A stretch of 61,741 bases of DNA, taken from assembly GCA_019429105.1 (NCBI GenBank), contig JAHYJE010000021.1:1-61741 (forward strand). Direction: 5' to 3'. Position numbers and translations under genes: made by a program. Below, piece after piece: positions 33,484 through 61,611 of the stretch (position 1 is the first letter of the stretch; each line of letters opens with the position of its first letter). The notes beneath the pieces are model-generated. The model did not search any database. It was not told the origin of the DNA and was given only the letters and a program-made list of their open reading frames with translations. This stretch comes from Syntrophobacterales bacterium. Its GTDB lineage: Bacteria > Desulfobacterota > Syntrophia > Syntrophales > UBA5619.

Positions 33484-36400
33484 GTGAACGTGAGCAATTA
33501 CAAGATAGGGGAGCTTTTGCTCCGTCTGAAGTCGCACCTGCGCAGGGACCTTGGGAAAACACATGACGTGGATGAGCCGCCGCTGCGCGCAGAGTTGTTC
33601 AGCGCCGACCAGATGGAGCAGCACGGCAAGAAACTGGCGAGTTTACACCAATTGAATCCTGTTCATACCCCGGAGCTGCTTTTGGCGCGGCTGGCGGAAA
33701 ACGAGGTCATTCTGCTGGGCGTCCGCAACCTGTTGACCGAAGCGGCTAAGGACAACCGCCGGATTACGCCTGCCGGAGAATGGCTGCTCGATAACTTCTA
33801 CCTGATCGAAGAGCAGATTCGCATTGCCAGGCGGCATCTGCCAAAGGGTTATAGCCGGGAGCTGCCCCGTTTGCTGAATGGCCCCTCGGCCGACCTTCCG
33901 CGTGTTTATGACATTGCGCTTTCGACTATTTCCCACGGCGATGGGCGGGCCGATCCGGAGAGTCTTCGCCGGTTTGTTGCCGCCTATCAGGGCATAACTG
34001 TCCTCAAGTTGGGCGAGTTGTGGGCCATCCCCATCATGTTGCGCCTGGCGCTGATCGAGAATCTCCGTCGCATTGCCGCCCGGATCGCGACGGACAGAAT
34101 AGACCGTAATCTGGCCGATTACTGGGCGGATCGGATGACCGAGAGCGCCGCCAAGGATCCGAAGAACCTGATTCTGGTGATTGCGGACATGGCCAGATCG
34201 AATCCGCCCTTAGTCAGTTCGTTTGTCGCAGAAATGACCCGCCGCCTGCAGGGGCAGGGCCCCGCTCTGGCGCTGCCCCTGACCTGGATCGAGCAGCGCC
34301 TCTCCGAGGACGGTCAGGCCATCAAACAACTCGTGGATGCGGAGACCCAGCAGCAGGCCGCCGACCAGATCTCCATGAGCAACAGCATCGGCAGCCTCCG
34401 TTTCCTTGGTGCGATGGACTGGCGGGAGTTCGTCGAGATGATGAGCGCAGTCAATCAGATTCTGCAGGAAGATCCCGCCGCTCTTTATGGCTTGATGGAT
34501 TTTTCGACCCGGGACCGGTACCGCCATGTTATAGAGAAGATCGCGAAGTTCAGCCGATTATCCGAGGGAGAAATCGCGCGTCTGGCGATCGGGCTCGCCC
34601 GGAAGGGAGAAGCCGAAAAAGGCGTCGCTAACCGCACGGCGCATGTCGGCTTCTACCTGATCGATCAGGGAGCTGCCGAGCTGGACAGTCTGGCCGAGGT
34701 GCGCTGGCCGCCCTCCGAAGCGCTCCGGAAATGGAGCCGGCGACGTCCTTTCCTGCTCTATGGCGGCGCGATCCTCCTTTTGACACTGTCCTTTTTATGG
34801 ATATTGCTGAATAACCCATATACCGGAGGATTGCGTGAGTGGCCGCTGTTGCTCACGGGCGTGCTGCTGCTTTTGGGCACCAGTCATCTGGCAATCGCCC
34901 TGGTGAACTGGTTGGCGACGCTGCTGGTTATGCCGCAGCCGTTGCCGCGCCTGGACTTCTCCGAGGGAATCCCGGCGCAATTTCGCACCCTGGCCGTGGT
35001 TCCGACGATGCTTGCCAGCGCCCGGAACATTGCGGAACTGATTGAGGCCATGGAGGTCCGTTTCCTTGCCAATCGGGACGATAACCTGCATTTCGCGCTG
35101 CTGACCGATTTTCGCGATGCCCCCGCTGAAACTTTGCCGGAGGATGAAGGTCTGCTGCGGCTGGTCCAAACGGGGATCGAAGGCCTCAATAAAAAGTACA
35201 GGAACCTGAATGGCGACAGCTTCTTCCTTTTCCATCGTCCGCGCCGCTGGAATCCGCAGGACCGGATCTGGATGGGTTACGAACGTAAGCGGGGGAAACT
35301 TGCTGATTTGAATGCCCTGCTGCGGGGCGACCCCGCGGATGGTTCCGGGGCCCGCTTTTCGCTTGTTGTCGGTGATACGGCCGCTTTGACAAATGTGAAA
35401 TACGTGATCACCTTAGACACCGATACCCAGTTGCCGCGCGATGCCGCCCGTCAGTTTGCGGGGGCCATGGCGCATCCGCTCAACCGGGCCCGCTACGACG
35501 ATGCCCTGGGGCGCATCAGCGAGGGATATGGAATCCTCCAGCCCCGGGTGGCGGTAAGCCTGACCGGCCTGAACCGGTCGCGGTACGCGGTTATGTGCGG
35601 GAGCGATCCCGGCATTGATCCCTATACGCGGGTCGTATCCGATGTTTACCAGGACCTGTTCGGCGAGGGATCATTCATCGGCAAGGGCATCTATGATGTG
35701 GATGCCTTCGAAGCGGCGCTCAAGGAGCGTTTTCCCGAGAACCGGATTCTCAGCCACGATCTTATCGAAGGGTGTTACGCCCGGGCGGGTCTCTTGAGCG
35801 ATGTGCAGCTCTATGAGGAGCATCCCTCCCGCTACAGCGCGGATGTGAGCCGCCGTTATCGGTGGATCCGCGGGGACTGGCAGCTTTTGAGATGGCTGTT
35901 GCCAGGCGTTCCCGGCCCCACCGGGCAACCGCAAAAAAATCCGCTCTCCAATTTGTCCCGCTGGAAGATCCTCGATAATCTGCGGCGCTCTCTGACGCCG
36001 GCGGCCCTGACCTGTTTATTGCTTTTGGCCTGGACTTCCCTGTCGCCGGCCTGGTACTGGACCTGCGTGGTGCTCGGGATTATCCTGATTCCCGCGGTGC
36101 TGACTTCCCTCCTTGATGGGCTTCAGAAACCGGCGGAGGTCCTTTTCAGCCAGCATCTGAGCGTCGTCCTGCGTTCCGCCGGCAGGCGCTTCGCCCAGGC
36201 CGCCTTTACATTCGCCTGTCTGCCGTACGAGGCTTTTTTCAGCATGGAGGCAATCCTGCGCACGGCCTGGCGGATGCTGATCTCGCACCGGCGGTTTCTC
36301 GAATGGAATCCGTCGGGGGGGCCGGAGCGCAACCGCGGCGATCTGGTCGGCGCCTTTCGGACCATGTTTTTCGCCCCGGCGCTGGCCGCTGCCACTCTTA

Positions 36401-39400: not shown

Positions 39401-42129
39401 CGGTGGATCTGGTAATCTGGAACGAAGATCATGCGGGTTACCGGCAACTGCTCCACGACCAGATCATGGGGCTGATTGCCGCCGGCGTCGAAACCAACGT
39501 GACGGACAAACGCGGCAGTATCTTCGTGAGACCCGCAGACCAGATCGCGAACGAGGACCGTATCCTGATCCAGACAGTCGCCCGCGCCATCATCAGCGAC
39601 TCCCGAGGATCTCTTGCCGACCAGCTCAGCCGTCAAAAGACTGTCGAGATGGCCGTGCCGCGCCTGACGCTGTCCCGGACTCACCGCGCCGCCGGCCCGG
39701 TTCTGGCCGCGCTTCCCCGCCCCGACCTGATTTTTTTCAATGGACTCGGCGGATTCACCCCCGATGGGCGTGAGTACGTCATTTCTACCGCGCCGGGCCA
39801 GACTACCCCGGCGCCGTGGGTGAATGTCCTGGCGAATCCAAATTTCGGCACGGTTCTGTCCGAAAGCGGCTCCGCCTACACCTGGGCCGAAAATGCCCAC
39901 GAGTTTCGTCTGACCCCCTGGCACAACGACCCCGTAAGCGACACGAGCGGGGAGGCCTTTTACATCCGCGATGAAGAGCGCGGCGACTTCTGGTCCCCAA
40001 TGTCGCTGCCTGCCCGCGGGATGACGCCGTACGTCGCCCGGCACGGATTCGGCTACAGCGTCTTCGAACACACGGAGCGCAGCATCCGCTCCGAGGTGTG
40101 GGTTTATGTGGCCCCGGACGCGCCCGTCAAGTTCACAGTGCTGAAGATCAAAAACGAGTCGGGCCGTTTTCGGCAGCTCTCCGTCACGGGCTATGCAGAG
40201 TGGGTGCTGGGGGATTTGCGACCGAAATCGGCCATGCACGTGGCGACTGAAATTGACCCCGCAAGCGGGGGGCTCTTCGCGCGGAACCCATACAATACTG
40301 AATTTCCCGGCCGGACCGCTTTTTTCAACACGGACGGCGCGAAGCGGACAGTGAGCGGCGACCGGACGGAGTTTTTGGGACGTAACGGCACGCATGCAAG
40401 TCCGGCGGCGATGAGCCGGTCGCGGCTTTCCGGCCGCGTTGGGGCTTCTTTGGATCCCTGCGCCGCGATTCAGGTTTATGTTGGGCTTGCCGACGGCGAG
40501 GAGCGGGAGATCGTCTTCACGCTCGGTGCGGAGAAGGATGTTGCCGCCGCTCGGCGCCTGGCGAATCGTTTTCGGGGAGCGGCGGCGGCGCGGGAGGCGC
40601 TGGAAGCGGTGTGGCAGTACTGGAAAAATACGCTCGGCGCCGTCCAGGTGGAAACGCCCGATGCTTCCCTCAACGTGCTGGCCAACGGCTGGCTTTTGTA
40701 TCAGACCCTGGCGTGTCGCCTCTGGGCGCGCAGCGGTTATTACCAGTCCGGAGGGGCCTTCGGTTTCCGCGACCAGTTGCAGGATGTGATGGCCCTCATC
40801 CACACCGAACCGCGGCTTACCCGCGAGCATCTGCTCCTCTGCGCGTCCCGTCAGTTTTCCGAAGGGGACGTCCAGCACTGGTGGCACCCCCCCTCAGGCC
40901 GGGGCGTGCGGACCCACTGCTCGGATGATTACCTCTGGCTGCCACTGGCGACGTGCCGCTACGTCACGGCTACCGGAGACACCGGCGTCCTCGACGCGTC
41001 CATTCCTTTCGTCCTGGGGCGTCCGGTCAATGCGGAGGAAGATTCGTATTACGATCTGCCCTCCCGTTCCGGGGAAACGGCCGGGCTCTATGAACACTGT
41101 GTGCGGGCGATTCAGCGGGGGCTCCGGTTCGGAGAACATGGATTGCCGCTCATCGGCTCCGGAGACTGGGACGACGGCATGAACCTGGTGGGCGCCGAGG
41201 GAAAAGGCGAAAGCGTCTGGCTGGGGTTCTTTCTCTATGATGTTCTGACGTGGTTCGCCGGGTTGGCGCGCACACGCGGCGACATCTCCTTTGCCGACCG
41301 CTGTGAACTGGAAGCGGCGCAGTTGCGTCAGAATATAGAGAAAAATGGCTGGGATGGCAAGTGGTATCGCCGCGCCTACTTTGACGACGGCACGCCGCTG
41401 GGTTCTGCCGAAAACGCCGAATGCCAAATCTCTTCCATTTCACAGAGCTGGTCGGTTCTGTCCGGGGCAGGGGAGCCCGGCCGCTCCCGACTGGCCATGG
41501 AAGCGGTGGAGCGGCGGCTCGTGCGCAGGGAATACGGTCTGATCCAGCTCATCGATCCGCCCTTCGACAAGTCAATGCTGAATCCCGGCTACGTAAAAGG
41601 GTATGTGCCCGGTGTCAGGGAAAACGGCGGACAGTACACGCATGCGGCGATCTGGGCGGCTATGGCTTTTGCCGCCCTGGGCGACGCCCCGCACGCCTGG
41701 GAACTGCTGACGATGATCAATCCTGTGAACCATGCCAAATCTCCCGAGGCTATTGCAACCTACAAAGTCGAGCCGTACGTCGTTGCGGCTGACGTTTATT
41801 CCGTGCAGCCGCACACCGGCAGGGGCGGCTGGACATGGTACACGGGTTCGGCTGGCTGGCTCTACCGGCTCGTTATGGAGTCGCTCCTCGGCTTGACCAT
41901 CGAGGGGGACAGACTGAGTTTCGCACCGCTTCTTCCTGTGGATTGGGAGGGCTTCACGGTGCATTACCGTTATCGGGAAACCGTTTACCACATCGCCGTC
42001 CTGTCCACGCCTGCCGTCGCTGGTCGGGCGGGGGTGACGGTTGACGGCGACTTGCGGACCGGGCAGTCAATTACCCTTGTGGACGATCGCCGGGAACACT
42101 CGGTCGAGGTCCGAATATTTGAAAAATAG
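33484..42129 (+). CDS. ndvB: Cyclic beta-1,2-glucan synthase, NdvB/ChvB type
   Basis: About 2881 residues, the usual size of this giant inner-membrane enzyme. Start GTG 33484 after GGAG; an open frame further upstream runs through the terminator and is not coding. Order: N-terminal domain; transmembrane helices around residues 420-480; GT84 glycosyltransferase with LDTDTQLPRDA near 645 and RYRWIRGDWQLLRW near 790; more helices at 840-1005; a glycoamylase-like domain near 1300-1560; and C-terminal GH94 phosphorylase-type domains to the end, with the acid residue in GSGDWDDGMN near 2560. It polymerises beta-1,2-glucan from UDP-glucose, sets chain length and cyclises it; the product is an osmoregulated periplasmic glucan. 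Confidence 0.93.
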   Translation: MNVSNYKIGELLLRLKSHLRRDLGKTHDVDEPPLRAELFSADQMEQHGKKLASLHQLNPVHTPELLLARLAENEVILLGVRNLLTEAAKDNRRITPAGEWLLDNFYLIEEQIRIARRHLPKGYSRELPRLLNGPSADLPRVYDIALSTISHGDGRADPESLRRFVAAYQGITVLKLGELWAIPIMLRLALIENLRRIAARIATDRIDRNLADYWADRMTESAAKDPKNLILVIADMARSNPPLVSSFVAEMTRRLQGQGPALALPLTWIEQRLSEDGQAIKQLVDAETQQQAADQISMSNSIGSLRFLGAMDWREFVEMMSAVNQILQEDPAALYGLMDFSTRDRYRHVIEKIAKFSRLSEGEIARLAIGLARKGEAEKGVANRTAHVGFYLIDQGAAELDSLAEVRWPPSEALRKWSRRRPFLLYGGAILLLTLSFLWILLNNPYTGGLREWPLLLTGVLLLLGTSHLAIALVNWLATLLVMPQPLPRLDFSEGIPAQFRTLAVVPTMLASARNIAELIEAMEVRFLANRDDNLHFALLTDFRDAPAETLPEDEGLLRLVQTGIEGLNKKYRNLNGDSFFLFHRPRRWNPQDRIWMGYERKRGKLADLNALLRGDPADGSGARFSLVVGDTAALTNVKYVITLDTDTQLPRDAARQFAGAMAHPLNRARYDDALGRISEGYGILQPRVAVSLTGLNRSRYAVMCGSDPGIDPYTRVVSDVYQDLFGEGSFIGKGIYDVDAFEAALKERFPENRILSHDLIEGCYARAGLLSDVQLYEEHPSRYSADVSRRYRWIRGDWQLLRWLLPGVPGPTGQPQKNPLSNLSRWKILDNLRRSLTPAALTCLLLLAWTSLSPAWYWTCVVLGIILIPAVLTSLLDGLQKPAEVLFSQHLSVVLRSAGRRFAQAAFTFACLPYEAFFSMEAILRTAWRMLISHRRFLEWNPSGGPERNRGDLVGAFRTMFFAPALAAATLIALTMFRPNSLGVAVPILLFWFLSPALAWWISRPLVRREASLTKEQTLFIRVLSRKTWAFFETFVGPEDHWLPPDNFQEKPSPVVAHRTSPTNIGLALLANLSAYDFGYLLAGQLIERTQNAFQTMEALERYQGHFYNWYDTRSLKPLTPLYISSVDSGNLAGHLLTLRPGLLALPDQKITGPRLWEGLGDTLKVLADEAAVTPGMIPPVRLAKFTQLLEAALASPPATLAAVILCLEQLAASAAELIAAGEGLDTDPESSLRVWTRALAGQCQAALAELSLLAPGAAGPVPPADSGEWDGIPTLRQLAKLGGGAASQRAAERIETIEQLARQCGGLARSEYGFLFNKARKLLSIGYNVTEHKQDQSFYDLLASEARFSTFVAIAQGLLPQESWFALGRLLTTAGGEQILLSWSGSMFEYLMPLLVMPTYENTLLDQTMKAAVARQIEYGRQRGMPWGSSESGYNAIDVHQNYQYRAFGVPGLGLKRGLAEDLVIAPYASAMALMVAPEEACRNLERLAAEGFGGRYGFYEAIDYTPSRLPRGQGSAVVRSFMTHHQGMSLLSLAFLLLDRPMQKRFESEPRFQATLLLLQERIPQSTAFYAHIADSSDNHRDLSPQAPPIRVFSSPDSPVPEVQLLSNGRYHVMVTSAGGGYSRWKDLAVTRWREDSTCDSWGSFYYIRDVQSGEFWAASSQPTPQRADRYEAIFSEGRAEFRRLDHGIDTHTEIAVSPEDDIELRRITITNASERKRTIDVTSYAEVVLASPAADALHPAFSNLFVQTEILHRERAIFCTRRPRSQGEPIPCMFHLMAVQCADLGEISYETDRLQFIGRGNTVANPRAMTDLSDLTGREGSVLDPIVSIRCLIMLEPDEKATLSIVTGVGETRAAALGLVEKYQDRRLADRVFDLAWTYSHVLLRQINATEADAQLYGHLAGSVIYANASMRADAGIILKNRRGQSGLWGYSISGDLPIVLLSIEDPANIELVRQLVQAHAYWLLKGLAVDLVIWNEDHAGYRQLLHDQIMGLIAAGVETNVTDKRGSIFVRPADQIANEDRILIQTVARAIISDSRGSLADQLSRQKTVEMAVPRLTLSRTHRAAGPVLAALPRPDLIFFNGLGGFTPDGREYVISTAPGQTTPAPWVNVLANPNFGTVLSESGSAYTWAENAHEFRLTPWHNDPVSDTSGEAFYIRDEERGDFWSPMSLPARGMTPYVARHGFGYSVFEHTERSIRSEVWVYVAPDAPVKFTVLKIKNESGRFRQLSVTGYAEWVLGDLRPKSAMHVATEIDPASGGLFARNPYNTEFPGRTAFFNTDGAKRTVSGDRTEFLGRNGTHASPAAMSRSRLSGRVGASLDPCAAIQVYVGLADGEEREIVFTLGAEKDVAAARRLANRFRGAAAAREALEAVWQYWKNTLGAVQVETPDASLNVLANGWLLYQTLACRLWARSGYYQSGGAFGFRDQLQDVMALIHTEPRLTREHLLLCASRQFSEGDVQHWWHPPSGRGVRTHCSDDYLWLPLATCRYVTATGDTGVLDASIPFVLGRPVNAEEDSYYDLPSRSGETAGLYEHCVRAIQRGLRFGEHGLPLIGSGDWDDGMNLVGAEGKGESVWLGFFLYDVLTWFAGLARTRGDISFADRCELEAAQLRQNIEKNGWDGKWYRRAYFDDGTPLGSAENAECQISSISQSWSVLSGAGEPGRSRLAMEAVERRLVRREYGLIQLIDPPFDKSMLNPGYVKGYVPGVRENGGQYTHAAIWAAMAFAALGDAPHAWELLTMINPVNHAKSPEAIATYKVEPYVVAADVYSVQPHTGRGGWTWYTGSAGWLYRLVMESLLGLTIEGDRLSFAPLLPVDWEGFTVHYRYRETVYHIAVLSTPAVAGRAGVTVDGDLRTGQSITLVDDRREHSVEVRIFEK

Positions 42130-50657: not shown

Positions 50658-51122
50658 TCAATCTGTTACCTTAAAATACTCAATATCCCGGATGCTGCCT
50701 TTTCGCTCCCTGGAAAATACCGGTGCGACCCGGGCGCCGATTCGGAGCCTTTTTTCCTCCTCGACGCTGATGTAGTGCTGAAAAAGGGTATCGGCGCCGT
50801 CCAGTTTGATGAAGCCGTAACCATAGGGGACCGGCTTCTGCCTGCCTGTTTCCGGATCGAGGAAGGCAAAGCGAATAATGGTAAAGGTGCCGATGACCCC
50901 TTGCGGCCCTACTTCGACCCACTCCTTCATCTCCACAAAACAGTCCCCGCAGACCGCGCGCGGCGGGATATAAACCTTTTTGCACCGGGGACACCGAACC
51001 GCCATAAAACGACAGTTGTCCCGTATCTCTGTAAAAAACCTGCTCCCGTGCATCCCCACGCTATACGCAAAGGGTTGAACCGCGTCGCCTGAGGCGATGA
51101 TGAGCTGTTCTGGCCTGACCAT
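50658..51122 (-). CDS. Zn-ribbon OB-fold protein (DUF35), thiolase partner
   Basis: 154 residues. Rubredoxin-like zinc ribbon CPRCKKVYIPPRAVCGDC, then an OB-fold (VGPQGVIGTFTIIRFAF, YGFIKLDGADTLFQHYI) ending RDIEYFKVTD. DUF35 proteins bind thiolase-fold enzymes and are required for their activity, for example BbsA with BbsB or the DUF35 part of ChsH2 with Ltp2. Located 19 bases after the thiolase gene at 51142, its probable partner. Confidence 0.88.
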   Translation of the reverse strand: MVRPEQLIIASGDAVQPFAYSVGMHGSRFFTEIRDNCRFMAVRCPRCKKVYIPPRAVCGDCFVEMKEWVEVGPQGVIGTFTIIRFAFLDPETGRQKPVPYGYGFIKLDGADTLFQHYISVEEEKRLRIGARVAPVFSRERKGSIRDIEYFKVTD

Positions 51123-51141: not shown

Positions 51142-52299
51142 TCAATGCGGTTTTTTCCTGCCGTGCAGGATCATATCGGTCCACCAGCAGCCGCCGAACC
51201 CACTGCTGAAGGCAAGCTTGACGTCCGGAACCTGCCTGTACTCGGCCTTCCCCATCACCTGCAGCGCCGCCTCGGCGCACCGGATAAGCCCGGTTGCCCC
51301 GATGGGATTGCAGGAGATAACGCCGCCGGACGGGTTGATGGGAAGCTCGCCGCCCATGTCGGTATTGCCGTCCCAGATATACCGCGGCGCCTCGCCGGGG
51401 CCGACAAGGCCCATGTCCTCAATCCAGATCAGACCGCCGAACGAATAGGGCTGGTAGAGCTCGATTACGTCCAGTTCCTTGCGCGGCTCCCGGATGCCCG
51501 CCTTCTTCCAGAGTTCCTGCGAGCCCTCGCGCATGCTGGTGAGCCGTCCGTAATCGGCGTCGCCGAGATAACTGTATGAATGGCGCGCCGCCGTGCCCAA
51601 AATCCAGTCGGGCTGCGGGCAGATCTTCTCCGCGACGTCTTCGCTGGCCATAATGACGGCGCATGCGCCGTCGGAACGGGGGCAGACGTCCAGCAGATGG
51701 ATCGGATCGGCCAGGATCGGGGAGGCAAGCACTTGTTCGAGGGTTACCTCCCGGCGGAGATGCGCGTGGGGGTTGTTGAGTGCGTGTTTTCGGTCGCGAA
51801 CGCTCACCCGGGCGGCGTCGCGGTCGGTAGCGCCGTAGCGGGCCATGTAGGCCTGCGCCTCCGCGGCCAGTCCCGAAATCGCGCCGGCGAATACCAGGCG
51901 ATCCCAGATGGGATCAAAGGCGGTGGTGATGGCGCCGGTGGTGTCCGACTCGGAGTTCTTCTCCCAGCCGATGATCAAAACCCTGTCGAACATCCCCGAC
52001 CCGACCAGATGATATCCGCCAATAGCTACAGTGCAGCCGGTGGTCCCGCCGGTGGTCAGCTTGATAATGGGCTTCATCGTGCCGCCGGAGCCGTCCACGC
52101 TCCAGCAATCGACGTAATTGATTCCCTCAAAGTGGTCCATATTGCCGATGACGATGGCATCGATGTCTTTCATCTGCAGATCGGCGTCGTTGAGCGCCCG
52201 GATAACCGCCTCGTTAATGAGCTCCTGTCCGTTTACATCCGGACGGTGGCTCGTATGGAATGTCTGGCCGGTTCCGACAATTGCCACTCTTTTTGCCAT
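51142..52299 (-). CDS. Thiolase-fold (SCP2/lipid-transfer type) protein without nucleophilic Cys
   Basis: 385 residues. Starts VAIVGTGQTFHTSHRPDVNGQEL and has the thiolase fold. Where archaeal and SCP2-type thiolases have CASG, it reads GTTG (Gly85 in my alignment), and the usual GHP loop near the C-terminus is CNPIGATG, so both thiolase residues are altered. It therefore probably does not do ordinary thiolysis; an aldolase-like role with a DUF35 partner is more likely. It is closer in sequence to the protein at 58481 than to its neighbour at 52311. Confidence 0.85.
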   Translation of the reverse strand: MAKRVAIVGTGQTFHTSHRPDVNGQELINEAVIRALNDADLQMKDIDAIVIGNMDHFEGINYVDCWSVDGSGGTMKPIIKLTTGGTTGCTVAIGGYHLVGSGMFDRVLIIGWEKNSESDTTGAITTAFDPIWDRLVFAGAISGLAAEAQAYMARYGATDRDAARVSVRDRKHALNNPHAHLRREVTLEQVLASPILADPIHLLDVCPRSDGACAVIMASEDVAEKICPQPDWILGTAARHSYSYLGDADYGRLTSMREGSQELWKKAGIREPRKELDVIELYQPYSFGGLIWIEDMGLVGPGEAPRYIWDGNTDMGGELPINPSGGVISCNPIGATGLIRCAEAALQVMGKAEYRQVPDVKLAFSSGFGGCWWTDMILHGRKKPH

Positions 52300-52310: not shown

Positions 52311-53456
52311 CTACTTGTCCCGGTCCAGGATAAACACGCAGTGGGACTGGCCGGCAAGCCCGTTTACCCCGTGCGCCAGACCGGTTTTTGCCTTTTTTAC
52401 CTGAAATCCTCCCGCGTCGCCCCGAATCTGCCTGACCACTGCGGCCAGGCTGTAGAGGCCGGCGGCGATAACCGGGTGGCCGGAAAGCAGTCCGCCGGAG
52501 GCATTTACCGGCAGCCGGCCGTTTCTGTCAAAATCGCCCTTTTCGAGGAGTTTCCCGGCCGTCGCCGCCTCGGCAAGCCCCATTTCCTCGAGCCACAGGA
52601 GTTCCTGATAGGTAAAGGCGTCGTGCAGTTCGACAACATCGATCTCTTTTTTCGGGTCATTGATGTCGGCCATAGCGTAGGCCTTCTTCGCCGCTGCGGC
52701 CAGCGCCCGGGCGCGGGAGAGGTTCCGGTCGCCCAAAAAGAAGCTGTCCGCGCAAAACGAAACGCCCCTGATCCAGACGGGCCTCTGCCTGAACCTGGTC
52801 GCCACCGATTCGTGGGCGATAATGACCGCCGCGCACCCATCGGACACCGGTGAGCAGTCCAGCTTGTGGAGCGGGTCGGCGATTGGCTCGGAGGCGAGTA
52901 CATCCTGAACGGTGATTTTCAGCGGGAGCTGCGTAAGCGGGTTTTTGAGCGCATTGCCGTGGTTCTTCACCGATACCAGCGCCAACTGCTCCTCAGTGGT
53001 CCCGGTGCGGTGCATGTATGCCCTGGCCTGCAACGCGCAGGCGGTAACCATGTCCAGGCCGAGGGCGCGTTCGTAGATGGGATCGAAGGCCGCATTGGTG
53101 ATGAGGCTCGATACGCCCTCGGAACCCTTGGAATGTCCGGTGACCAGCGTGGTTTTGTATGAGCCGGAAAGGCAGCGGGTCATCCCGTAAAGCGCCCCGT
53201 AGGCGCCGTCCCCCTCGACGCAGGAGACGTTTTTGTGGGCCGCGCCGCTGGCGTCTCCTACGGCCATGCAGGAAATCGTCCGTCCGTCCCAGAAGTCGCT
53301 GGAGGTGGTCACCACGTTGTCGATATCGGCAATCGTCATGCCCGCATCGTTCAGGGCCTTGTTTACGGCCTCCCACGCCATGTCGGCGAAGGTCTCCCGC
53401 ACCTTGTTTTTTTCTATTTTGGTCATGCCGACGCCGATTATCGCCGCTCTGTCCAT
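52311..53456 (-). CDS. Thiolase-fold (lipid-transfer type) protein
   Basis: 381 residues with start MDRAAIIGVGMTKIEKNKVRETF. In the nucleophile region it reads VEGDGAYG, against VEAACASG in archaeal thiolases, so Cys appears to be Gly84; a Cys79 just before could mislead an alignment. The C-terminal GHP motif is kept (LLSGHPVIAAGL), unlike in the other three. It sits between a DUF35 gene (53469) and the other thiolase-fold gene (51142), so a complex of two unlike thiolase subunits with DUF35 proteins is plausible. Confidence 0.83.
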   Translation of the reverse strand: MDRAAIIGVGMTKIEKNKVRETFADMAWEAVNKALNDAGMTIADIDNVVTTSSDFWDGRTISCMAVGDASGAAHKNVSCVEGDGAYGALYGMTRCLSGSYKTTLVTGHSKGSEGVSSLITNAAFDPIYERALGLDMVTACALQARAYMHRTGTTEEQLALVSVKNHGNALKNPLTQLPLKITVQDVLASEPIADPLHKLDCSPVSDGCAAVIIAHESVATRFRQRPVWIRGVSFCADSFFLGDRNLSRARALAAAAKKAYAMADINDPKKEIDVVELHDAFTYQELLWLEEMGLAEAATAGKLLEKGDFDRNGRLPVNASGGLLSGHPVIAAGLYSLAAVVRQIRGDAGGFQVKKAKTGLAHGVNGLAGQSHCVFILDRDK

Positions 53457-53468: not shown

Positions 53469-53933
53469 TTATTTTGTTGGCCGGAAATGCGAAATATCCA
53501 GGATGCCGCCCGTGCGCGCCTCGGAGAACACCGCCTTTACGCGCATGCCGATGGCCACGCCTTCCGGCTCTATTTCGTCTATATAATGCAGCAGGGCGGT
53601 GTCGGCGCCGTCGAGTTTGATCAGCCCCCAGATGACCGGTGCCTTTCGATTCTTGGGGATGGCGGCAAACTGGCGCCTTGCCACGGTAAAGGAAAGGACG
53701 CGCCCCTCGCATGCCAGCTCCACCCACTGCGTATTTTCAGTAAAGCAGATCGGGCAAACCTTGCGGGGGGGACAAAATACCCTGCCGCAGGCCGGGCATT
53801 TTGTCCCCATTATGCTTTTTTCATCCCGCAGGGCTGTAAAAAATCTGCTCGCCGTGTTGCCGGCCCACCAGGAATAGGGGATATTGATCTTGCTATGGCA
53901 GACCATCGGTTCAATGCCTGGAAATTGCGACAT
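53469..53933 (-). CDS. Zn-ribbon OB-fold protein (DUF35), thiolase partner
   Basis: 154 residues. N-terminal helices ending RFFTALRDEKSIMGTKC, zinc ribbon CPACGRVFCPPRKVCPIC with all four cysteines, then an OB-fold (LACEGRVLSFTVARR, IWGLIKLDGADTALLHYI) ending ILDISHFRPTK. It precedes the thiolase-fold gene at 52311 by 12 bases, its likely partner. It is similar to but clearly distinct from the DUF35 protein at 50658. Confidence 0.88.
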   Translation of the reverse strand: MSQFPGIEPMVCHSKINIPYSWWAGNTASRFFTALRDEKSIMGTKCPACGRVFCPPRKVCPICFTENTQWVELACEGRVLSFTVARRQFAAIPKNRKAPVIWGLIKLDGADTALLHYIDEIEPEGVAIGMRVKAVFSEARTGGILDISHFRPTK

Positions 53934-53981: not shown

Positions 53982-55817
53982 TTATTTACGATACAGCTCA
54001 TCTACGGCCTCTTTTTCATACATCTCGGCGATCATGGCCTGATACTTCTCGATAACCACCCGCCGCTTCAGTTTGAGCGTTGCCGTCAGCTCGCCGCCCT
54101 GTTGTGAAAAATCATCCCCGATGATTCGGTAATCCTTGATTGTTTCATACCGGGCTAAATGTGTATTGCGCTCCTCGACATGTTGCCGGACGATGGCCAG
54201 AAAAAGGGCATTATCCAGCAAATCGGCCGGTTTTTGGCAGGGGATATTTTTTTCTGCCGCGATCATCGCTGCCAGGTCCAGATCGATGTTGCAAAGCCCG
54301 GTCAGGTACTTTTTCTTTTCCCCGATGACGATAAACTGGGTGAAGAGCGGATCCGACTTGAATAAACCCTCGATCTTCTGCGGGGCGACATTCTTGCCGC
54401 CCGAGGTAATGAGGATGTCCTTTTTGCGGTCGGTGATGAGCAGATTGCCCTCTTCATCGAACTTTCCGATATCGCCCGACAGAAAATATCCATCCGGCGT
54501 AAAGGATTCGCTGGTTTCCTTCGGCAATTTCCAGTATCCCTTTGTCACGTTGCCGCCCTTGATCAAAATCTCTCCGTCGGCGGCTATCTTGATGTCCTGG
54601 CCGGGGAGCGGCTTGCCGGTGGTACCTATCCGGTAATCAGCCAGCGACTGCATGGTGGCGGGCGCCGTCGTTTCCGTCATGCCGTATCCCTGAATGACCG
54701 TAATGCCGGCGGCGTTGAAAAAGCGAATGATCTCCGGGGCAGTGGGGGCGCCGGAGGCCGTCATCCAGGTGACCCGTCCGCCTAATTTGTCCTGGAGTTT
54801 TTTGAAGATGATCGCATAGGCGAGTTTGTACTGGAGCTTCAAAAAAAACGGGATGGGCGTGTGCCTTTCGCGGAGCTCGCTGATGCGGCTGCCGACCTGC
54901 TGCCCCCAGATAAAAACCTTCTGTTTGAAGGGGGATTGCTCTTTCACCTGCGCCATGATCTTCTGGTAAACCTTTTCGCAGACGCGCGGAACGGCGAGGA
55001 TCATCGTGGGCCGCTTCTCCGCAAAATCACTAAGCAGCGTGTCGATGCTCTGGGCGTAGGAAGCGGTGATGCCGCAGTACATGCCATAGAAGTGGCCGGC
55101 AATCCGTTCAAAAACATGGGAAAGGGGCAGGAACGGAACCGTGCAGTCCCGGTCGGAGGCGAAATGGGGCAGAATCCGGTCCAGGGACTGGACCACCCAG
55201 AAAACATTCCCATGGGTGATCATCGCGCCCTTGGGCAATCCGGTGGTCCCGGATGTATAAACAATCGTCGCCAAGTCGTCAGCGGTGACTTCCCGGGACA
55301 GCTTCTCAAAAAGCTTGGGGTCTGCGGCGTGTTCATTCCGGCCCAGCTCCAGCAGAGCCCGGAAACTGATAATCCGGGGGTGCCCCTTAGCCTCCGCTTC
55401 CTCCATGACAATGATCTTTTCGAGGCGGGGGCACTTATCCACAATCTCCAGCACCTTTTCGAGCTGGTTTTGGTTTTCCGGGATAATAACCTTCGCTTCG
55501 GAATTATTGACAATATATTCGATCTCCTCGGCCGCCAGCGTCGGGTAGATCGGGATGACGCAGGCGCCGATTCCGAGTGCGCCCATATCCGCATAAAGCC
55601 ACTCCAGCCGGTTTTCGGAAAGGATGGCAATCATCTCCCCCTTCCGGACTCCCAGCGACCAGAGCCCAAGGCCGACGGCGCGCGCCCGTTCGTAATACTC
55701 GTTCCAGGAGGCGCCTTGCCAGACGCCGTTCATCTTTTTTTCGACGGCAAGCCGCTCCCCGTATTTTTTGGCGCGGTTCCGAAAAACATCATTCATGGTT
55801 TTTTCTGATGATTCCAT
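53982..55817 (-). CDS. AMP-forming acyl-CoA synthetase (FadD15-like)
   Basis: 611 residues from ATG 55817, which follows GGGGGAT; an open frame continues upstream but its composition is not protein-like. Adenylation motifs: IVYTSGTTGLPKGAMITHGN near residue 185, GYGMTETTAP near 375, YFLSGDIGKFDEEG and DRKKDILITSGGKNVAPQKIE. It activates a fatty or other hydrophobic carboxylic acid to its CoA ester with ATP. It lies in the middle of the operon and is likely the entry step. No signal peptide; substrate not predictable. Confidence 0.9.
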   Translation of the reverse strand: MESSEKTMNDVFRNRAKKYGERLAVEKKMNGVWQGASWNEYYERARAVGLGLWSLGVRKGEMIAILSENRLEWLYADMGALGIGACVIPIYPTLAAEEIEYIVNNSEAKVIIPENQNQLEKVLEIVDKCPRLEKIIVMEEAEAKGHPRIISFRALLELGRNEHAADPKLFEKLSREVTADDLATIVYTSGTTGLPKGAMITHGNVFWVVQSLDRILPHFASDRDCTVPFLPLSHVFERIAGHFYGMYCGITASYAQSIDTLLSDFAEKRPTMILAVPRVCEKVYQKIMAQVKEQSPFKQKVFIWGQQVGSRISELRERHTPIPFFLKLQYKLAYAIIFKKLQDKLGGRVTWMTASGAPTAPEIIRFFNAAGITVIQGYGMTETTAPATMQSLADYRIGTTGKPLPGQDIKIAADGEILIKGGNVTKGYWKLPKETSESFTPDGYFLSGDIGKFDEEGNLLITDRKKDILITSGGKNVAPQKIEGLFKSDPLFTQFIVIGEKKKYLTGLCNIDLDLAAMIAAEKNIPCQKPADLLDNALFLAIVRQHVEERNTHLARYETIKDYRIIGDDFSQQGGELTATLKLKRRVVIEKYQAMIAEMYEKEAVDELYRK

Positions 55818-55840: not shown

Positions 55841-57268
55841 CTATCTTGGCTTCATACCCATAATCAGACGCGCCTCGGTCGCTGTCGCCACCGGTCGCCC
55901 CAGGGCGCTGGCAATACTCACTGCCACTTCCACCAGTTCGTAACTTCCCCGGGCCAGCCGGCCGTCCGGCATCCGGATGTTGTCCTCCAGCCCCACCCGC
56001 ATGTGTCCGCCGAGCAGGCACGACTGCATGATGCAGGGGAACTCGTCCGTGCCGACGCCGCAGGTGGTAAAGTTGGCCCGCGGCGGCAGCGCGTTCATCA
56101 TGGCGATGAACGATTCGGCGCGGAAAGCCTGCCCGCCCGCCACTCCCCAGACAAAGTTGAAATTCATCGGGTCGCTGAAGATGCCCTGCCGGGCGATCAG
56201 CAGGGTGTTGTCCAAACCGCCCATGTCGTAGCATTCGATCTCCGGCTTCACGCCGTTTTCTTCCATCGCCCGGCTGAAATCCTGCAGCATGGTGAAGGTG
56301 TTTTCAAACACATAATCAATGAATATCTTTCCTGTTTTTCTCTCGACAATGCCGAAATTCATCGTGTTGGTGTTAAGCGACGCCATCTCGGGCTTGATCG
56401 CGACGATCTGGGAGATCCGCTGCTCGGCTGTTTTGCCCATGCCGACGGCGGAGCTCAGGTTGACGATGAGTTCCGGACACCTGTCCTTGATGGCGTCGTG
56501 GGTTGCCTTGATCCGGCCGTGATCATGGGTGGCCATGCCGCCGTCTTCCCGCGCATGCACATGCACCATGGCCGCGCCGGCCTGCCAGCACTTCCAGGCT
56601 TCTTCGGCAAATTCCTCCGGCGTGTAGGGCACGGACGGGTTTTGGTTCTTCATGGTTGCCGCGCCGGTGAGCGCTGCGGCAATGATAACTGGCGTTGCCA
56701 TATCGGGTTTTCCTCCTTTTCGTTTTTCGTTAGTCGCTGGTTCGTCCGCAGGATTCCATTGCTTCCGGGCCGTGTTGAGCGCGTGAATAGAGATTTTTTC
56801 GGGCGCTGGTTTAAAATGATCGATGTCGAGGATGGTGTTCGTCGTCTCTTTGGCAAAGACCGCCTCTACCTTCATCCCGATCTTCACGTCCTCGATTTTG
56901 CACTCCTCTACGATGTGCATAAACGGCGTGCCGGCGCCGTCGAGTTGGATGAGGGCCAGGACATAGGGGGCAGGCCGCGGCAGGTGCCGGTCGTCGTAGC
57001 GCACTACCGTGAAGGTGGTCACCGTGCCGGTATTGTTCAGCTCTACCCAGTTGTCGCGGATGTCGGTAAAGTCCTTGTCGCATACCTGCCGGGGCGGGAG
57101 ATAGACGGTGTTGCAGGCGGGGCATTTTACGCCCATGATTTTCTGCTGATCGCGAATGGTTGTAATAAATTTGCTGCCCACCCGCCCGGCGAAGTAGGTG
57201 TAGGGGAGCGCCATTTTACCTTCGACTTCATAGCTGTCTTCAAATCCAGCGACCTGCTCTTTTGCCAT
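55841..57268 (-). CDS. DUF35 Zn-ribbon/OB domain fused to beta-keto acid cleavage enzyme (BKACE)
   Basis: 475 residues, two domains in one frame. Residues 1-165 are a DUF35 protein; its ribbon has Cys49, Cys52 and Cys63, but the fourth position is Asp66. A 25-residue linker follows. From Met190 it is a complete BKACE (DUF849, Kce-like): Zn ligands in VHVHARED (His236, His238), EIECYDMGG, and the RVGLEDN motif with Arg, Glu and Asp near the C-terminus. BKACE converts a beta-keto acid plus acetyl-CoA to acetoacetate plus an acyl-CoA. Met190 is preceded by AAGGAGG at ten bases, so BKACE may also be made separately. No stop lies between the domains. Confidence 0.85.
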   Translation of the reverse strand: MAKEQVAGFEDSYEVEGKMALPYTYFAGRVGSKFITTIRDQQKIMGVKCPACNTVYLPPRQVCDKDFTDIRDNWVELNNTGTVTTFTVVRYDDRHLPRPAPYVLALIQLDGAGTPFMHIVEECKIEDVKIGMKVEAVFAKETTNTILDIDHFKPAPEKISIHALNTARKQWNPADEPATNEKRKGGKPDMATPVIIAAALTGAATMKNQNPSVPYTPEEFAEEAWKCWQAGAAMVHVHAREDGGMATHDHGRIKATHDAIKDRCPELIVNLSSAVGMGKTAEQRISQIVAIKPEMASLNTNTMNFGIVERKTGKIFIDYVFENTFTMLQDFSRAMEENGVKPEIECYDMGGLDNTLLIARQGIFSDPMNFNFVWGVAGGQAFRAESFIAMMNALPPRANFTTCGVGTDEFPCIMQSCLLGGHMRVGLEDNIRMPDGRLARGSYELVEVAVSIASALGRPVATATEARLIMGMKPR

Positions 57269-57279
57269 ATCCCCTCTCC

Positions 57280-58470
57280 TTACTCATCTATCTCGAAGTA
57301 TTTAATGTCCCAGATATCCCCGCTCCGGTTTTCCTCCCAGACGGGGCGGACGCGGGTTCCCTTGTTTTCGTTCCAGCCCGCCTGAATCTTTTCTATCTGA
57401 TCCTTCCGGATAAAGTGCGGCAGGGTTTCATTGCCCTTGCAGCCGTCCAAAAGGATGTTGATTGATCCGTAGGGAGTTTCCCGGGCCACGCCGGTCAGTG
57501 GATCGGGCAGGGCGTAGTAAACGACGTCCATGTAGCGGACTTCACCCTTGGGTCCGACCTCCACGAATTCAGCGGCGCGCACCCGGCATTCCGCGCAAAC
57601 CTCCCGCGGCGGGAGTTGCAGGCGGCCGCACCGGGGGCATTTATTGGCGTATATCTTTTTATCCTTCAACCCCCGGAGAAACTTCCCCATCACGGGGCCG
57701 GTTGCAAACCTCTGATTGATCGAGATGGTCTTTTTCAGCGTCAGCAATTCCTGCTCCTGGACGTTCCCGGCCAGGGGGTCCTTGTATTTCTCGAACAGGA
57801 GAGGCCATTTCGACGCCATCATGTTGATGTCGCCTTTGGCGGCCGCCTTTCCGGCCGCCAGGATGCTCTGGGCGTCGATCTTCCCGAGGATGAAGTCAAC
57901 GTAATCCCGGGCGTCGTTAAATTCCAGCGTTACAGTCGGTTTGCCCTCGATGGTCGTCGTGACCGTGCAGGCCTTGTCCTTGATGAAGACGCTCCACTGG
58001 CCGCCCTCCGCCCCGCCGAGATCGAAAGCAAAGGAGGCCTCGAGCCCCTCGGCTTCTTGGGCCTTGAACCGCGGCACGATGGTCGCGAACATGTCGGCGA
58101 GATACTCCCTTGTCGTCATCTCCTTTTTGGCAAGGACGAATTTGCGGAAAAGCCGGCCGGTCTTCCCGAAGGCGGCCATGTCGCCTTCAATCCGGAACTT
58201 GCCGCTTATGAAGGCGTTTGTTGCATCAACCTTGCCGACGTTGACCCCGACAAAGGTCTCCCCGTCGGCTGCCATCGTCGCGACGCAGTGGGAGAGGTCG
58301 TCGGTCTTTGCGAGCGTCATCGCGTTATTCTTTACCGTCAGTTGCCATTTCCCTTCGTCCTTGATGTCGTAGCCGAAAACCGCTTCGACATCCTTCGCCC
58401 CTTCGGGCCGGAAACGCTCCGGCATCGAGTTGAAGATATCTGCTACTGTGACGCCCCAGTATTCTGCCAT
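57280..58470 (-). CDS. Double SCP2 lipid-carrier domain fused to DUF35 Zn-ribbon/OB domain
   Basis: 396 residues. Two tandem SCP2-like domains, about residues 10-110 (VFGYDIKDEGKWQLTVKNN) and 125-230 (SFAFDLGGAEGGQWSVFIKD, FILGKIDAQSILAAGKAAAKG), are followed by a zinc ribbon near 282 (CPRCGRLQLPPREVCAEC) and an OB-fold to the end (DIWDIKYFEIDE). SCP2 domains bind sterols and acyl-CoAs; DUF35 binds thiolases. In animals SCP2 is fused to the thiolase itself (SCPx); here it is fused to the thiolase partner. It follows the thiolase-fold gene at 58481 by 10 bases. Confidence 0.85.
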   Translation of the reverse strand: MAEYWGVTVADIFNSMPERFRPEGAKDVEAVFGYDIKDEGKWQLTVKNNAMTLAKTDDLSHCVATMAADGETFVGVNVGKVDATNAFISGKFRIEGDMAAFGKTGRLFRKFVLAKKEMTTREYLADMFATIVPRFKAQEAEGLEASFAFDLGGAEGGQWSVFIKDKACTVTTTIEGKPTVTLEFNDARDYVDFILGKIDAQSILAAGKAAAKGDINMMASKWPLLFEKYKDPLAGNVQEQELLTLKKTISINQRFATGPVMGKFLRGLKDKKIYANKCPRCGRLQLPPREVCAECRVRAAEFVEVGPKGEVRYMDVVYYALPDPLTGVARETPYGSINILLDGCKGNETLPHFIRKDQIEKIQAGWNENKGTRVRPVWEENRSGDIWDIKYFEIDE

Positions 58471-58480: not shown

Positions 58481-59680
58481 CTACCAGTTCAGTTCCTTTT
58501 CCAGCATTGTCATTACGGTCCACATGGTGCCGCCGAACCCGGAGGCAAGCGCGTGCTTCACCGGAGTGGGAATCTGGTGCGGGCCGGCATTGCCGCGCAC
58601 CTGCAGCGCCGCCTCGGCCACCCGGATCAGCGCGGTGGCCCCGATGGGGTTCGACCCGATAACGCCGCCCGAGGGATTGATGGGCATTCTGCCACCGATC
58701 ATGATTTCCTTGTTCTCGACGAGCTTGAGGTGCTCATCGCCGTGCAGGGCAAAAAAGTCCCGGAGCCAGTCGATAGCCCACCAGGTGGCCGGATCGTACA
58801 TTTCGAACACGTCAAAGTAGTTTAGCGGGTCTTTGATCCCGTTGCGCCCAAAGAGCTGCTCGGCCGCGAATTTATGCGTCTTGATGACGGGGACTTTCCG
58901 GTCGTAGCCGAAGATGTTGAAGGTTTCCTCCCGATGGACGGTGATATGATCCCGTATCCAGACCGGCGTCCGGGCAAGCTCCTTCGCCTTCTGCTCGCAG
59001 GCGAAGATGACGCAGCAAGCCCCGTCGGACTGGGAGCACATTTCTATGAGTTTCAGCTCGCCCACGAGTTTAGGCGAGGTGCGGATCAAATCGTCGATCT
59101 GGCTGAATTCAAGGCCGAAGGCGCGGTGTGCGTTGGGGTTGAGGCACGCGTGCTTGTCCATGATGATGCGGTAGGTAAGGGACGCCCGGTTGGCCCGCTC
59201 CAAACCGAATTCCCGTTCGACGTCGTAGGCCGAGGAGCCGGTAAGCGCCCCCGCCTGAATTTTACGAAACCAGAGGGGATCCGCCATGTTGGTGATGCCG
59301 CCCGTTGTGTGTCCCTCCTGCAGTTTCTCAAAGCCGATCGCCATGACGATATCGTACATGCCAGACGCCGCGAGATTGTCCGAAGCGCAGGAAAGCGTCG
59401 CTCCCACCGTGCCGCCGGTGGTGATCCGGATGCAGTCCTTGCCGTACGCGCCGGTTCCCAAAACATGCCAGAGATCCGGCTGGTGGACCATCTCAAAGAG
59501 CTCCATGTTGCCGTGTACGACGCAGTCGATGTCCTTCATGGTCAGGTTCGCGTCTTGCAGCGCCAATCTGACGGCTTCATGGATCAATTCCGGCTGGTTG
59601 ACGTCCTCGCGATGGCTGGAATGCTTCGTCTGGCCGATGCCGATAATGCCGACATTTCTGTTTTTCTTGTGATGCGCCAT
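58481..59680 (-). CDS. Thiolase-fold (SCP2/lipid-transfer type) protein without nucleophilic Cys
   Basis: 399 residues beginning MAHHKKNRNVGIIGIGQTKHSSHRE. In the nucleophile loop it reads ITTGGTVG, with Gly90 where Cys is expected, and the C-terminal loop is GSNPIGAT instead of GHPxGAT. Closely related in layout to the protein at 51142. The gene stops 10 bases before the SCP2-DUF35 gene, its probable partner, and starts three bases after the gene at 59684. Confidence 0.85.
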   Translation of the reverse strand: MAHHKKNRNVGIIGIGQTKHSSHREDVNQPELIHEAVRLALQDANLTMKDIDCVVHGNMELFEMVHQPDLWHVLGTGAYGKDCIRITTGGTVGATLSCASDNLAASGMYDIVMAIGFEKLQEGHTTGGITNMADPLWFRKIQAGALTGSSAYDVEREFGLERANRASLTYRIIMDKHACLNPNAHRAFGLEFSQIDDLIRTSPKLVGELKLIEMCSQSDGACCVIFACEQKAKELARTPVWIRDHITVHREETFNIFGYDRKVPVIKTHKFAAEQLFGRNGIKDPLNYFDVFEMYDPATWWAIDWLRDFFALHGDEHLKLVENKEIMIGGRMPINPSGGVIGSNPIGATALIRVAEAALQVRGNAGPHQIPTPVKHALASGFGGTMWTVMTMLEKELNW

Positions 59681-59683: not shown

Positions 59684-60838
59684 TCAACCCCCCTGCGTTT
59701 CCATGACGATTACCGCCTGATGCTGCCCGGCCCCGCCGGTTGCCGCCTGGGCGACGGCCCGCTTCGCGTTTTCGACTTGTCGCTCACCGGCCTGCCGGGA
59801 GAGCTGATAGTAGCATTCAATAACCCTGGCCGCCCCCCCGAGGAGCAGCGGGTTGCCATTCAGTTGTCCCCCGGACAGGTTCACGTTGAATGTCTCCATG
59901 CCGCCCTCGTCAATCCATTGGCCGCCCTGCCCTTCATCGGCAATGCCGACCCCCTCGGCCCACATGGGGAGCTGATACGCTGCCTGGTCGGCAAGCTCGA
60001 AAAGCTGAATCTCCTTCCGGGGGTCTTTGATCCCGGCCATCGCGTACGCCCGCTGGGCGGCATTTTTCAGCGAAAAGTTGGACGCAAGGTCCCGGTCGCC
60101 CATGAAATACCGGTCCATGCAGCTTCCATAGCCGGTGATCCAGACGGGATTTTTCGTAAACTCCGCTGCCCGCTCTTCGCTGCACAGCAGCATTCCGTAA
60201 GCCCAATCGGTGACCGGATAGAGGTGCAGCTCCCTTAGCGGGTCCGAGTACAAAGGAGAATTCAGCACTTCCTCCTCGTCAACGAGTTTATTTTCGCGGC
60301 CATAGGGGTTTTTTGCCCCGTTCTTGCGGGAGCGCACCACTATTTTTGCCAGCTGCGCGTCGGTAATCTGCGATTTTTCCATATAAGCCCGGGCCTGCAG
60401 GGCGGCCACGTTGTGGTAGTCCATGCCGAGGGGCCGGCAGTAGAAGGGGTCATAGGCGAGGTTGGAAACCATCCGGCGGCTTTCCCCCTGCGACTCCTTG
60501 CAGTGGCCCATAAACAGGATGACGTCGTCGTGACCGGAAAGGATGCAGGCCATCGCGTAGCCGAGGCCATTGATGCTCTCCTGTGCGATCTTTTCCTCCC
60601 CGCGGAAGTGTGCTCCCACGACATCCGTGATGCCGTTGTCGGAGATTGTGCGCGCATCGAACACGTCATCCGAGCAGGTGATGATGGTGCGGATGCCCGT
60701 TTCCATGTCGAAGGTCGCCTGCGTCTGTTCCATGATCGGCTCGAAGCAGTCGAGCAGCATGTTTTGAAAGCGCAAATAGTGATAATTGGGATGATTTTTA
60801 ATCTGCGCCACGGCACAGACAGCTAATCTTCTACCCAT
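59684..60838 (-). CDS. Divergent thiolase-fold protein, first gene of the operon
   Basis: 384 residues from ATG 60838, eight bases after AGGAAGGAG; a TTG six bases earlier is too close. Thiolase fold recognised from CSDDVFDARTISDNG, LYSDPLRELHLYPVTDWAYGMLL and SGGQLNGNPLLLGGAARVIE. At the nucleophile position it has Ser89 (ESINGLG) and at the GHP position GNP, so it is the most diverged of the four. Resembles the protein at 52311. Probably pairs with the protein at 58481. Confidence 0.78.
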   Translation of the reverse strand: MGRRLAVCAVAQIKNHPNYHYLRFQNMLLDCFEPIMEQTQATFDMETGIRTIITCSDDVFDARTISDNGITDVVGAHFRGEEKIAQESINGLGYAMACILSGHDDVILFMGHCKESQGESRRMVSNLAYDPFYCRPLGMDYHNVAALQARAYMEKSQITDAQLAKIVVRSRKNGAKNPYGRENKLVDEEEVLNSPLYSDPLRELHLYPVTDWAYGMLLCSEERAAEFTKNPVWITGYGSCMDRYFMGDRDLASNFSLKNAAQRAYAMAGIKDPRKEIQLFELADQAAYQLPMWAEGVGIADEGQGGQWIDEGGMETFNVNLSGGQLNGNPLLLGGAARVIECYYQLSRQAGERQVENAKRAVAQAATGGAGQHQAVIVMETQGG

Positions 60839-60984
60839 TGCCAACGCTCCTTCCTGTTTGAGGGGGAATATAGTTTATGCCAATCATATCGTTATATTGC
60901 TAATGAAATTATTTTCCGCTATCCCGCCGTCTGGACGGGCGACCGTCATTTGCAGAGGCGGTTTTGCAGCCCGCCCAATGCGTC

Positions 60985-61536
60985 TCAGTGCAGATAGCAA
61001 TTCCAGAATTCTCCCTTTTTTACTGACTTGATGATCGCATCCTTTTCCCGCTTCGCATCCAGCTCCACCCAGGCCCTGCCGATGCCGGCGGCCGTGTGCG
61101 AGTCATCGGAGGCGATTTTGGGATAGGCTATCGCCAGCGCTTCGAAAACACGATCGCGAAAGCCCTTCTTCGTTATTTCCACCGCATCCAGGGGATACAG
61201 CTTCTCCAGTTCGGCAAGCCGCGCCAGCAACTGCTCCGGGGTAAAGTCATATTCGCCGATGTGGTTGAAAATATGCAGTTCTTCCTGGTCGCCGGCGATT
61301 TTTCCCACGTGTACATAGCCATTGACAAAGACCGTAAGCTCGATGCCGTAAAAAATAATCATGTCCGTTTTTACCTGCCGGTAAAGGTCGAGATAGTTTT
61401 TCTTCAGCAGGTGATCGTGATCCGTAAAGGCTATAAAATCATATCCTTTTGCTTCGTAGGCCGCGGCGGCTTCCTGGGGGGAAAGCTCGCCGTCCGAGCA
61501 AGTGGTGTGCGTATGTAAACAGCCTTTGAGGAGCAT
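60985..61536 (-). CDS. PHP-domain metallo-phosphoesterase
   Basis: About 183 residues; ATG 61536 chosen, with AGG upstream and the motif directly behind it. PHP metal motifs are intact: CLHTHTTCSDGELS, FTDHDHLL, a central YGIELT and IASDDSHTAAGIGRAW. Members of this family hydrolyse phosphoesters, from histidinol phosphate to nucleotides; the substrate here is unknown. It is on the same strand as the degradation operon but 146 bases upstream, so it is probably a separate transcript. No signal peptide. Confidence 0.85.
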   Translation of the reverse strand: MLLKGCLHTHTTCSDGELSPQEAAAAYEAKGYDFIAFTDHDHLLKKNYLDLYRQVKTDMIIFYGIELTVFVNGYVHVGKIAGDQEELHIFNHIGEYDFTPEQLLARLAELEKLYPLDAVEITKKGFRDRVFEALAIAYPKIASDDSHTAAGIGRAWVELDAKREKDAIIKSVKKGEFWNCYLH

Positions 61537-61611
61537 AGATGTCAACCTGTCGTTCACCAAAAAAATAACAGTTCACCAGATTTGTTGATTCGCGGATATT
61601 TCTCTTGGACG

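Follow-up and report, generated by a model that had tools for sequence, protein, structure and literature searches.

A DUF35-BKACE fusion gene with a conserved internal ribosome-binding site that probably encodes two proteins

In a 61,741-nt contig of a Syntrophobacterales bacterium (JAHYJE010000021.1, positions 1 to 61,741; from here on, the window), a single gene joins a DUF35 module to a beta-keto acid cleavage enzyme (BKACE), and a ribosome-binding site lies between the two modules. This locus raises the question of whether the gene gives rise to one protein or two, and what the attachment of a BKACE to a DUF35 module could bring about. An earlier note, made from the sequence alone, had placed both modules in one frame at 55841-57268, with a linker and no stop in between. 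We found that these coordinates are correct and that the gene lies on the minus strand, as do its subfeatures described here. The frame encodes 475 aa from an ATG start to a TAG stop with no stop inside, and the ribosome-binding site of the full-length product, GGAGAGGGG (57271..57279), directly follows the stop codon of the gene upstream. The DUF35 module (residues 1-157; 56798..57268) is complete, with a zinc ribbon, C49-x2-C52...C63-x2-D66 (57071..57124), and an OB fold (OB_ChsH2_C; 56855..57049). Both parts scored above the Pfam thresholds (zf-ChsH2 at residues 39-65, 27.9 bits against a cut-off of 23.2; OB_ChsH2_C at residues 74-138, 61.3 bits against a cut-off of 27.1). The module is followed by a 32-aa linker (56702..56797) and the BKACE module (55841..56701), which corresponds to a predicted free product of 286 aa and matches the Pfam BKACE profile (PF05853) over its full length (residues 193-472; 307.5 bits against a cut-off of 24.8; profile positions 1-274 of 274). 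An AlphaFold model of the fusion based on 18 sequences had a mean pLDDT of 66.7, which confirmed the two folds and is too weak for the placement of the domains relative to each other. Using this model in Foldseek, the C-terminal part matched Kce structures, while the N-terminal part matched 6esq, 6ok1, and 3irb.

We scanned genome contigs as well as whole genomes for relatives. In at least 26 distinct DNA sequences, both modules are present in one open frame. The carriers belong to the Syntrophales, other Thermodesulfobacteriota, and the Spirochaetota (with records assigned to Syntrophaceae, Smithellaceae, other Thermodesulfobacteriota or deltaproteobacteria, and Spirochaetes); they are uncultured and, for the most part, anaerobic, and span several lineages. 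Within the order, 14 of the 155 genomes searched contain an intact fusion. The linker sequence varies between fusions, and the linker length (31-34 aa) differs by whole codons. An assembly or sequencing error that removed a stop, which the earlier note had considered, is practically impossible because the 26 distinct open fusions come from independent assemblies. The window itself has nothing that points to such an artefact; among the relatives, L060 (6426-7986) has a frameshift inside DUF35, which splits this part of a Spirochaetia fusion over two frames and may be an error or mark a decaying copy. We conclude that the fusion is real and forms one continuous frame.

The earlier note had also considered that all relatives might have two separate genes; fused and two-gene arrangements both exist. 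In the two-gene relatives, the DUF35 stop is followed by a spacer of 29-203 nt and then by a Shine-Dalgarno (SD) sequence and the BKACE ATG. In a quick tree of the BKACE domain, calculated with SH-aLRT support and without bootstrap, all fusions group in a single clade (SH-aLRT 93) that branches from within the separate genes. Therefore, one fusion event suffices, the fusion is of single origin, and several independent events are unnecessary. Genome G121 contains, in addition to an intact fusion, a second match elsewhere with 61% identity that is interrupted by one TAG and looks like the two-gene version.

The linker harbors an internal SD sequence, AAGGAGG (56712..56718), within the coding sequence and 10 nt upstream of an internal ATG start codon, that of Met190 (56699..56701). 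An SD-like core precedes the invariant internal Met in all 26 distinct fusions and does so in three codon registers. The join reads AAA GGA GGN AAA CCC GAT ATG in the main group (KGGKPDM; KGG[KR]PDM) and GAA AGG AGG AAA GCG ATG (ERRKAM) in the second group, while L060 represents a third register, AAG GAG GAA, with a spacing of ~14 nt. Because the peptide differs between the registers while the SD persists, it is the nucleotide site that has been kept and not the peptide. Between the two main groups, the linkers are no longer recognizably similar, yet both groups have the SD and the ATG. From position 155 to 197, an alignment of 18 fusions has no invariant residue other than Met190. Among 111 invariant four-fold-degenerate sites in the 20-sequence main clade, Gly185 is the only one with purines exclusively (A in 16 and G in 4 sequences). 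The third base of Gly185 falls inside the SD, while that of Gly186 falls just outside and all four bases are used; overall, 63% of the Gly codons in the main-clade genes end in a pyrimidine. The KGGKPD peptide might also be constrained at the protein level, but both the pattern at third bases and the existence of a second register speak against this. SD duplex energies were computed for internal in-frame starts and also at the start of the full-length 475-aa product. Each sequence has 29-44 such internal starts, and in 23 of 25 sequences the energy at Met190 was the best of them. The RNA around Met190 is weakly structured (in 18 of 25 sequences, it falls under the 10th percentile for all codon positions), with the caveat that a purine-rich linker by itself lowers structure. 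The SD spacing of 10 nt in the main clade is at the long end of the range.

Based on these sequence comparisons, we conclude that the internal ribosome-binding site and Met190 are conserved beyond what the protein would need and that the internal start is under selection. The conserved SD and Met190, the constraint at Gly185, and the rank of the SD support that free BKACE is also made, and that the gene very probably gives rise to two proteins, a tethered DUF35-BKACE and a free 286-aa BKACE. The remark in the earlier note that the second part may be made on its own from the AAGGAGG site is, thus, its strongest part and gains support from the occurrence of an SD-like site in every fusion and from the synonymous constraint. 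The conserved internal start within the join is the unusual part of the fusion.

The BKACE module was compared with Kce by alignment with 2Y7D. H236/H238, E428, R424, D429, E345, and S272 align with Kce H46/H48, E230, R226, D231, E143, and S82, respectively. Of these Kce residues, we take the counterparts of H236, H238, and E428 to be the zinc ligands, and the counterparts of R424, D429, E345, and S272 presumably are active-site residues. H236, H238, E428, R424, and D429 are invariant in the alignment of 18 fusions, while Kce E14 is replaced by Ala204. Together with the full-length profile match, this agrees with the earlier reading of a complete BKACE with the expected catalytic motifs. The score of the NCBIfam equivalog for Kce (NF052387; 3-keto-5-aminohexanoate cleavage enzyme) was 267.8 bits and under its cut-off of 382, and we therefore do not call the domain a lysine-fermentation Kce. 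The match to NF052389 (182 bits against a cut-off of 725) covered the BKACE part alone. A characterized BKACE is a homotetramer in which each active site holds one zinc, and it converts a free beta-keto acid, which enters through a single channel of the enzyme's own, and acetyl-CoA to acetoacetate and an acyl-CoA (PMC11961710). By analogy, this is most likely also the reaction of the module analyzed here. The other complete BKACE genes in the window's genome are 37-38% identical to the BKACE of the fusion, so there is no close separate copy to supply free BKACE. A candidate second BKACE fusion in this genome, on contig C8, was rejected because it is only a short remnant: ~54 aa of a BKACE C terminus (G000:C8:89278-89439; L004, about 1500-1662) read on behind the gene for a PiT-type phosphate transporter and look like a pseudogene relic.

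The earlier note had remarked on the C-C-C-D zinc ribbon. This ribbon is real, i.e., a four-Cys ribbon is absent from the DUF35 part in the window, but it is not specific to the fusion. At the fourth position, the main fused clade and L060 have Asp, and fusions L053-L056 have Cys; Asp is also found in the unfused relatives L066 and L068, while several fusions and most two-gene relatives have four Cys. On these grounds, we ruled out the C-C-C-D ribbon as a hallmark of the fusion.

The gene is part of an operon with the order PHP-domain protein, ThlA, ThlB, SCP2-DUF35, DUF35-BKACE, acyl-CoA ligase, and DUF35b, followed by ThlC, ThlD, DUF35c, TetR, and two acyl-CoA dehydrogenases, and much of this order is common to relatives, whether fused or two-gene. 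On the minus strand, ThlA is located at 59684..60844, ThlB at 58481..59680, the SCP2-DUF35 gene at 57280..58470, the acyl-CoA ligase (AMP-binding; 609 aa from an ATG at 55811) at 53982..55811, ThlC at 52311..53456, and ThlD at 51142..52299; DUF35b (53469..53933) and DUF35c (50658..51122) are separate four-Cys DUF35 proteins. The neighbors had been described as a thiolase complex. However, all four thiolase-fold proteins lack the nucleophilic Cys of thiolases (Gly in ThlB, ThlC, and ThlD and an Ile/Leu region in ThlA), and this is conserved in relatives. Moreover, ThlA, ThlB, and ThlD lack the GHP His, with Asn in its place in three of the four proteins. ThlB has TTGG at the Cys place, SNP instead of GHP, and a YDPA motif (YDP[AS] in 39 of 39 sequences). 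ThlC has CVEGDG, has kept GHP, and contains HDAF in the window and YDAF in most fused loci, while ThlD has a YQPY motif. TcLtp2 and CtSal are thiolase-fold aldolases with the motifs YDHF and YDCY, respectively, and Gly at the Cys place (PMC12329534). The Tyr motif of ThlB and most ThlC proteins resembles that of these retro-aldolases, with a third motif position and a second acid residue that differ or are unmapped. Judged from these motifs, at least some of ThlA-ThlD are more likely to perform retro-aldol chemistry than thiolysis, although the agreement with the Ltp2/Sal type is incomplete. Because the Cys is missing and the Tyr motif is Ltp2/Sal-like, we replace the label thiolase by thiolase-fold, aldolase-like.

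Several other features of this cluster were observed. The SCP2-DUF35 gene, which adjoins the fusion in relatives too, is itself a fusion of an SCP2 sterol-carrier domain and a DUF35 zinc ribbon, with an OB fold below Pfam detection. The PHP-domain protein (~191 aa; 60985-61560) heads the cluster in nearly all relatives whose locus extends to this point, and it has no obvious role in CoA-ester chemistry. In L041 (9850-11626), a two-subunit CoA transferase that resembles glutaconate CoA-transferase (1POI) is encoded between the acyl-CoA ligase and DUF35b. An unannotated gap of 1.8 kb at this place in L036, L040, L042, L043, L044, L045, L053, L054, L057, L060, and L076 may hold a CoA transferase. 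In the window, a CoA transferase is absent between these two genes, and the alpha subunit had no match in the window's genome. The operon in L060 (8067-10856) includes another fusion, in which an enoyl-CoA hydratase and an acyl-CoA ligase share a 929-aa frame. Elsewhere in the window, a single 2905-aa frame (33412-42129) resembles, as an impression from its translation, a cyclic beta-glucan synthase/GH94-type protein.

We propose that two adjacent genes of this operon, for a DUF35 scaffold and a BKACE, became one frame once. The DUF35 stop would have been lost, the spacer would have turned into the linker, and selection would have retained the old BKACE ribosome-binding site and start codon within the fused gene. 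A single mRNA would then give rise to both the 475-aa DUF35-BKACE and the 286-aa free BKACE. DUF35 proteins dock on thiolase-fold dimers, two per dimer, as in CtShy-CtSal and ChsH2-Ltp2 (PMC11321319, PMC12329534). This knowledge of the family supports that the DUF35 module may serve as a dock for the thiolase-fold, aldolase-like proteins of its own operon in a similar way. Because BKACE is a homotetramer, free and tethered subunits would assemble together. With four fused chains, a tetramer would bear four DUF35 arms, by which partner dimers could be cross-linked; with free subunits included, it would bear fewer arms, and part of the BKACE would stay soluble. We consider this explanation probable as a whole, from the one-time fusion and the retained internal start to two products, DUF35 docking, mixed tetramers, and the BKACE reaction, and within it we infer the presence of both products in the cell, the docking, the mixed tetramers, and the reaction. 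An extended version is more speculative and, in our view, possible rather than probable: the gene would set the ratio of tethered to free BKACE, mixed tetramers with limited DUF35 arms would dock on aldolase-like dimers, and retro-aldol and beta-keto acid cleavage would be linked in an undescribed anaerobic pathway.

It is also conceivable that only one protein is made and that the internal SD and Met190 are relics of the separate gene that are unused or barely used. The site is clearly derived from what was once the BKACE start, and the 20-sequence main clade is fairly close (71-87% identity); because this fusion is fairly recent in the main clade, its sequences are not independent. In addition, 5 of the 26 fusions have GGGGG, AGGAGA, or a distant site instead of a well-placed AGGAGG, and GGGGG is the weaker core in L110, L044, L046, and L049. 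Nevertheless, we regard this reading as unlikely, as the SD and ATG are kept in different registers despite unrecognizable divergence of the linkers, Gly185 is the sole site of 111 with a purine-only third base, and Met190 is invariant within an otherwise variable linker.

Two other alternatives concern the DUF35 part. If it were a passive relic of a neutral fusion, then BKACE would act alone and docking would have been lost. The loss of the fourth ribbon Cys in most fusions and the fact that the two-gene arrangement functions in many relatives fit this idea. Yet, DUF35 is conserved as well as BKACE across the fusions (69-87% versus 75-87% identity) with many invariant residues, Asp is also present in L066 and L068 with their two genes, and CtShy, a docking DUF35 protein, carries a C3H1 ribbon and still docks (PMC12329534). 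We therefore assign a very low probability to a passive DUF35 part. The earlier note had suggested that intermediates pass directly between thiolase and BKACE. The fusion of DUF35 and BKACE within a thiolase-fold operon is compatible with such channelling, and the archaeal thiolase/HMG-CoA synthase-DUF35 complex (6ESQ), as cited in PMC12329534, relies on a shared CoA site for channelling. However, the thiolase-fold neighbors lack the thiolase Cys, and since BKACE takes a free beta-keto acid via its own single entry channel (PMC11961710), there is no obvious shared CoA arm. Also, the linker varies in sequence and length, the authors of the CtShy-CtSal study hold flexible linkers to be inconsistent with direct channelling (PMC12329534), and free BKACE is probably made as well. 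Thus, direct transfer appears improbable, and we favor two products with DUF35 as a dock.

Roles in two known pathways were rejected. Participation in propionate dismutation as in Smithella was considered because of the carriers and because the window encodes a methylmalonyl-CoA mutase N-terminal-domain protein (26069-27724; 818 bits to TIGR00641). It was ruled out, as any such gene is missing from several genomes of this family (f14, which matches records of Smithellaceae) and Spirochaetota have it. A steroid C/D-ring route, suggested by the CoA-transferase pair of relatives, was rejected as this pair is nearer to glutaconate CoA-transferase (1POI) than to IpdAB and its alpha subunit has no match in the window's genome.

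If our explanation is true, BKACE would be a new enzyme class among those carried by DUF35 scaffolds, and the gene would provide a clean natural case of a fusion that keeps its old start site and makes two forms in a set ratio. The operon, with four Cys-less thiolase-fold proteins, points to a C-C bond-cleaving route in uncultured anaerobes, several of them from syntrophic lineages. Current annotation mislabels proteins of the ThlA-ThlD type as thiolases.

Fusions of DUF35 to enzymes are already known, while BKACE as the partner is not described in the literature searched; this search had limited journal coverage and returned no paper joining BKACE/DUF849 and DUF35, and we give this little weight. 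As for two products with a common C terminus from one frame, similar cases are Cas11b (PMC11899642) and VirF21 (PMC5101355); their internal starts are reported to have been shown experimentally, whereas the internal start proposed here is based on sequence conservation after gene fusion. The Kce/BKACE family (PDB 2Y7D, 8RIO, 9HNF; PF05853) shares the full-length TIM barrel and the zinc, Arg, Asp, and Glu residues with the fusion, but the members considered have no N-terminal DUF35. The bifunctional 3-aminobutyryl-CoA ammonia lyase/Kce (NF052389) is also a two-domain protein with a C-terminal BKACE, and its partner domain is an ammonia lyase instead of DUF35. Like CtShy and ChsH2, the fusion is a single chain in which DUF35 is joined to an enzyme domain, and it is encoded beside thiolase-fold genes. 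ChsH2 (ChsH1-ChsH2-Ltp2 of steroid side-chain degradation; PDB 6OK1) recruits the Ltp2 aldolase and differs from the fusion in that DUF35 is C-terminal, the enzyme domain is MaoC, and the zinc ribbon has four Cys. CtShy, the side-chain hydratase of Comamonas testosteroni, has the same order as the fusion, i.e., an N-terminal DUF35, a flexible linker, and a C-terminal enzyme (PMC11321319, PMC12329534). It likewise adjoins a thiolase-fold protein without the nucleophilic Cys, the CtSal aldolase, and both proteins have an odd zinc ribbon (C3H1 in CtShy and C3D1 in the fusion). The two differ in the enzyme, which is a MaoC hydratase in CtShy and BKACE in the fusion, and in the internal start, which is conserved in the fusion and is not reported for CtShy in the literature consulted. 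Finally, the operon of the fusion, unlike that of CtShy, encodes three more proteins of the DUF35 type as well as four with a thiolase fold.
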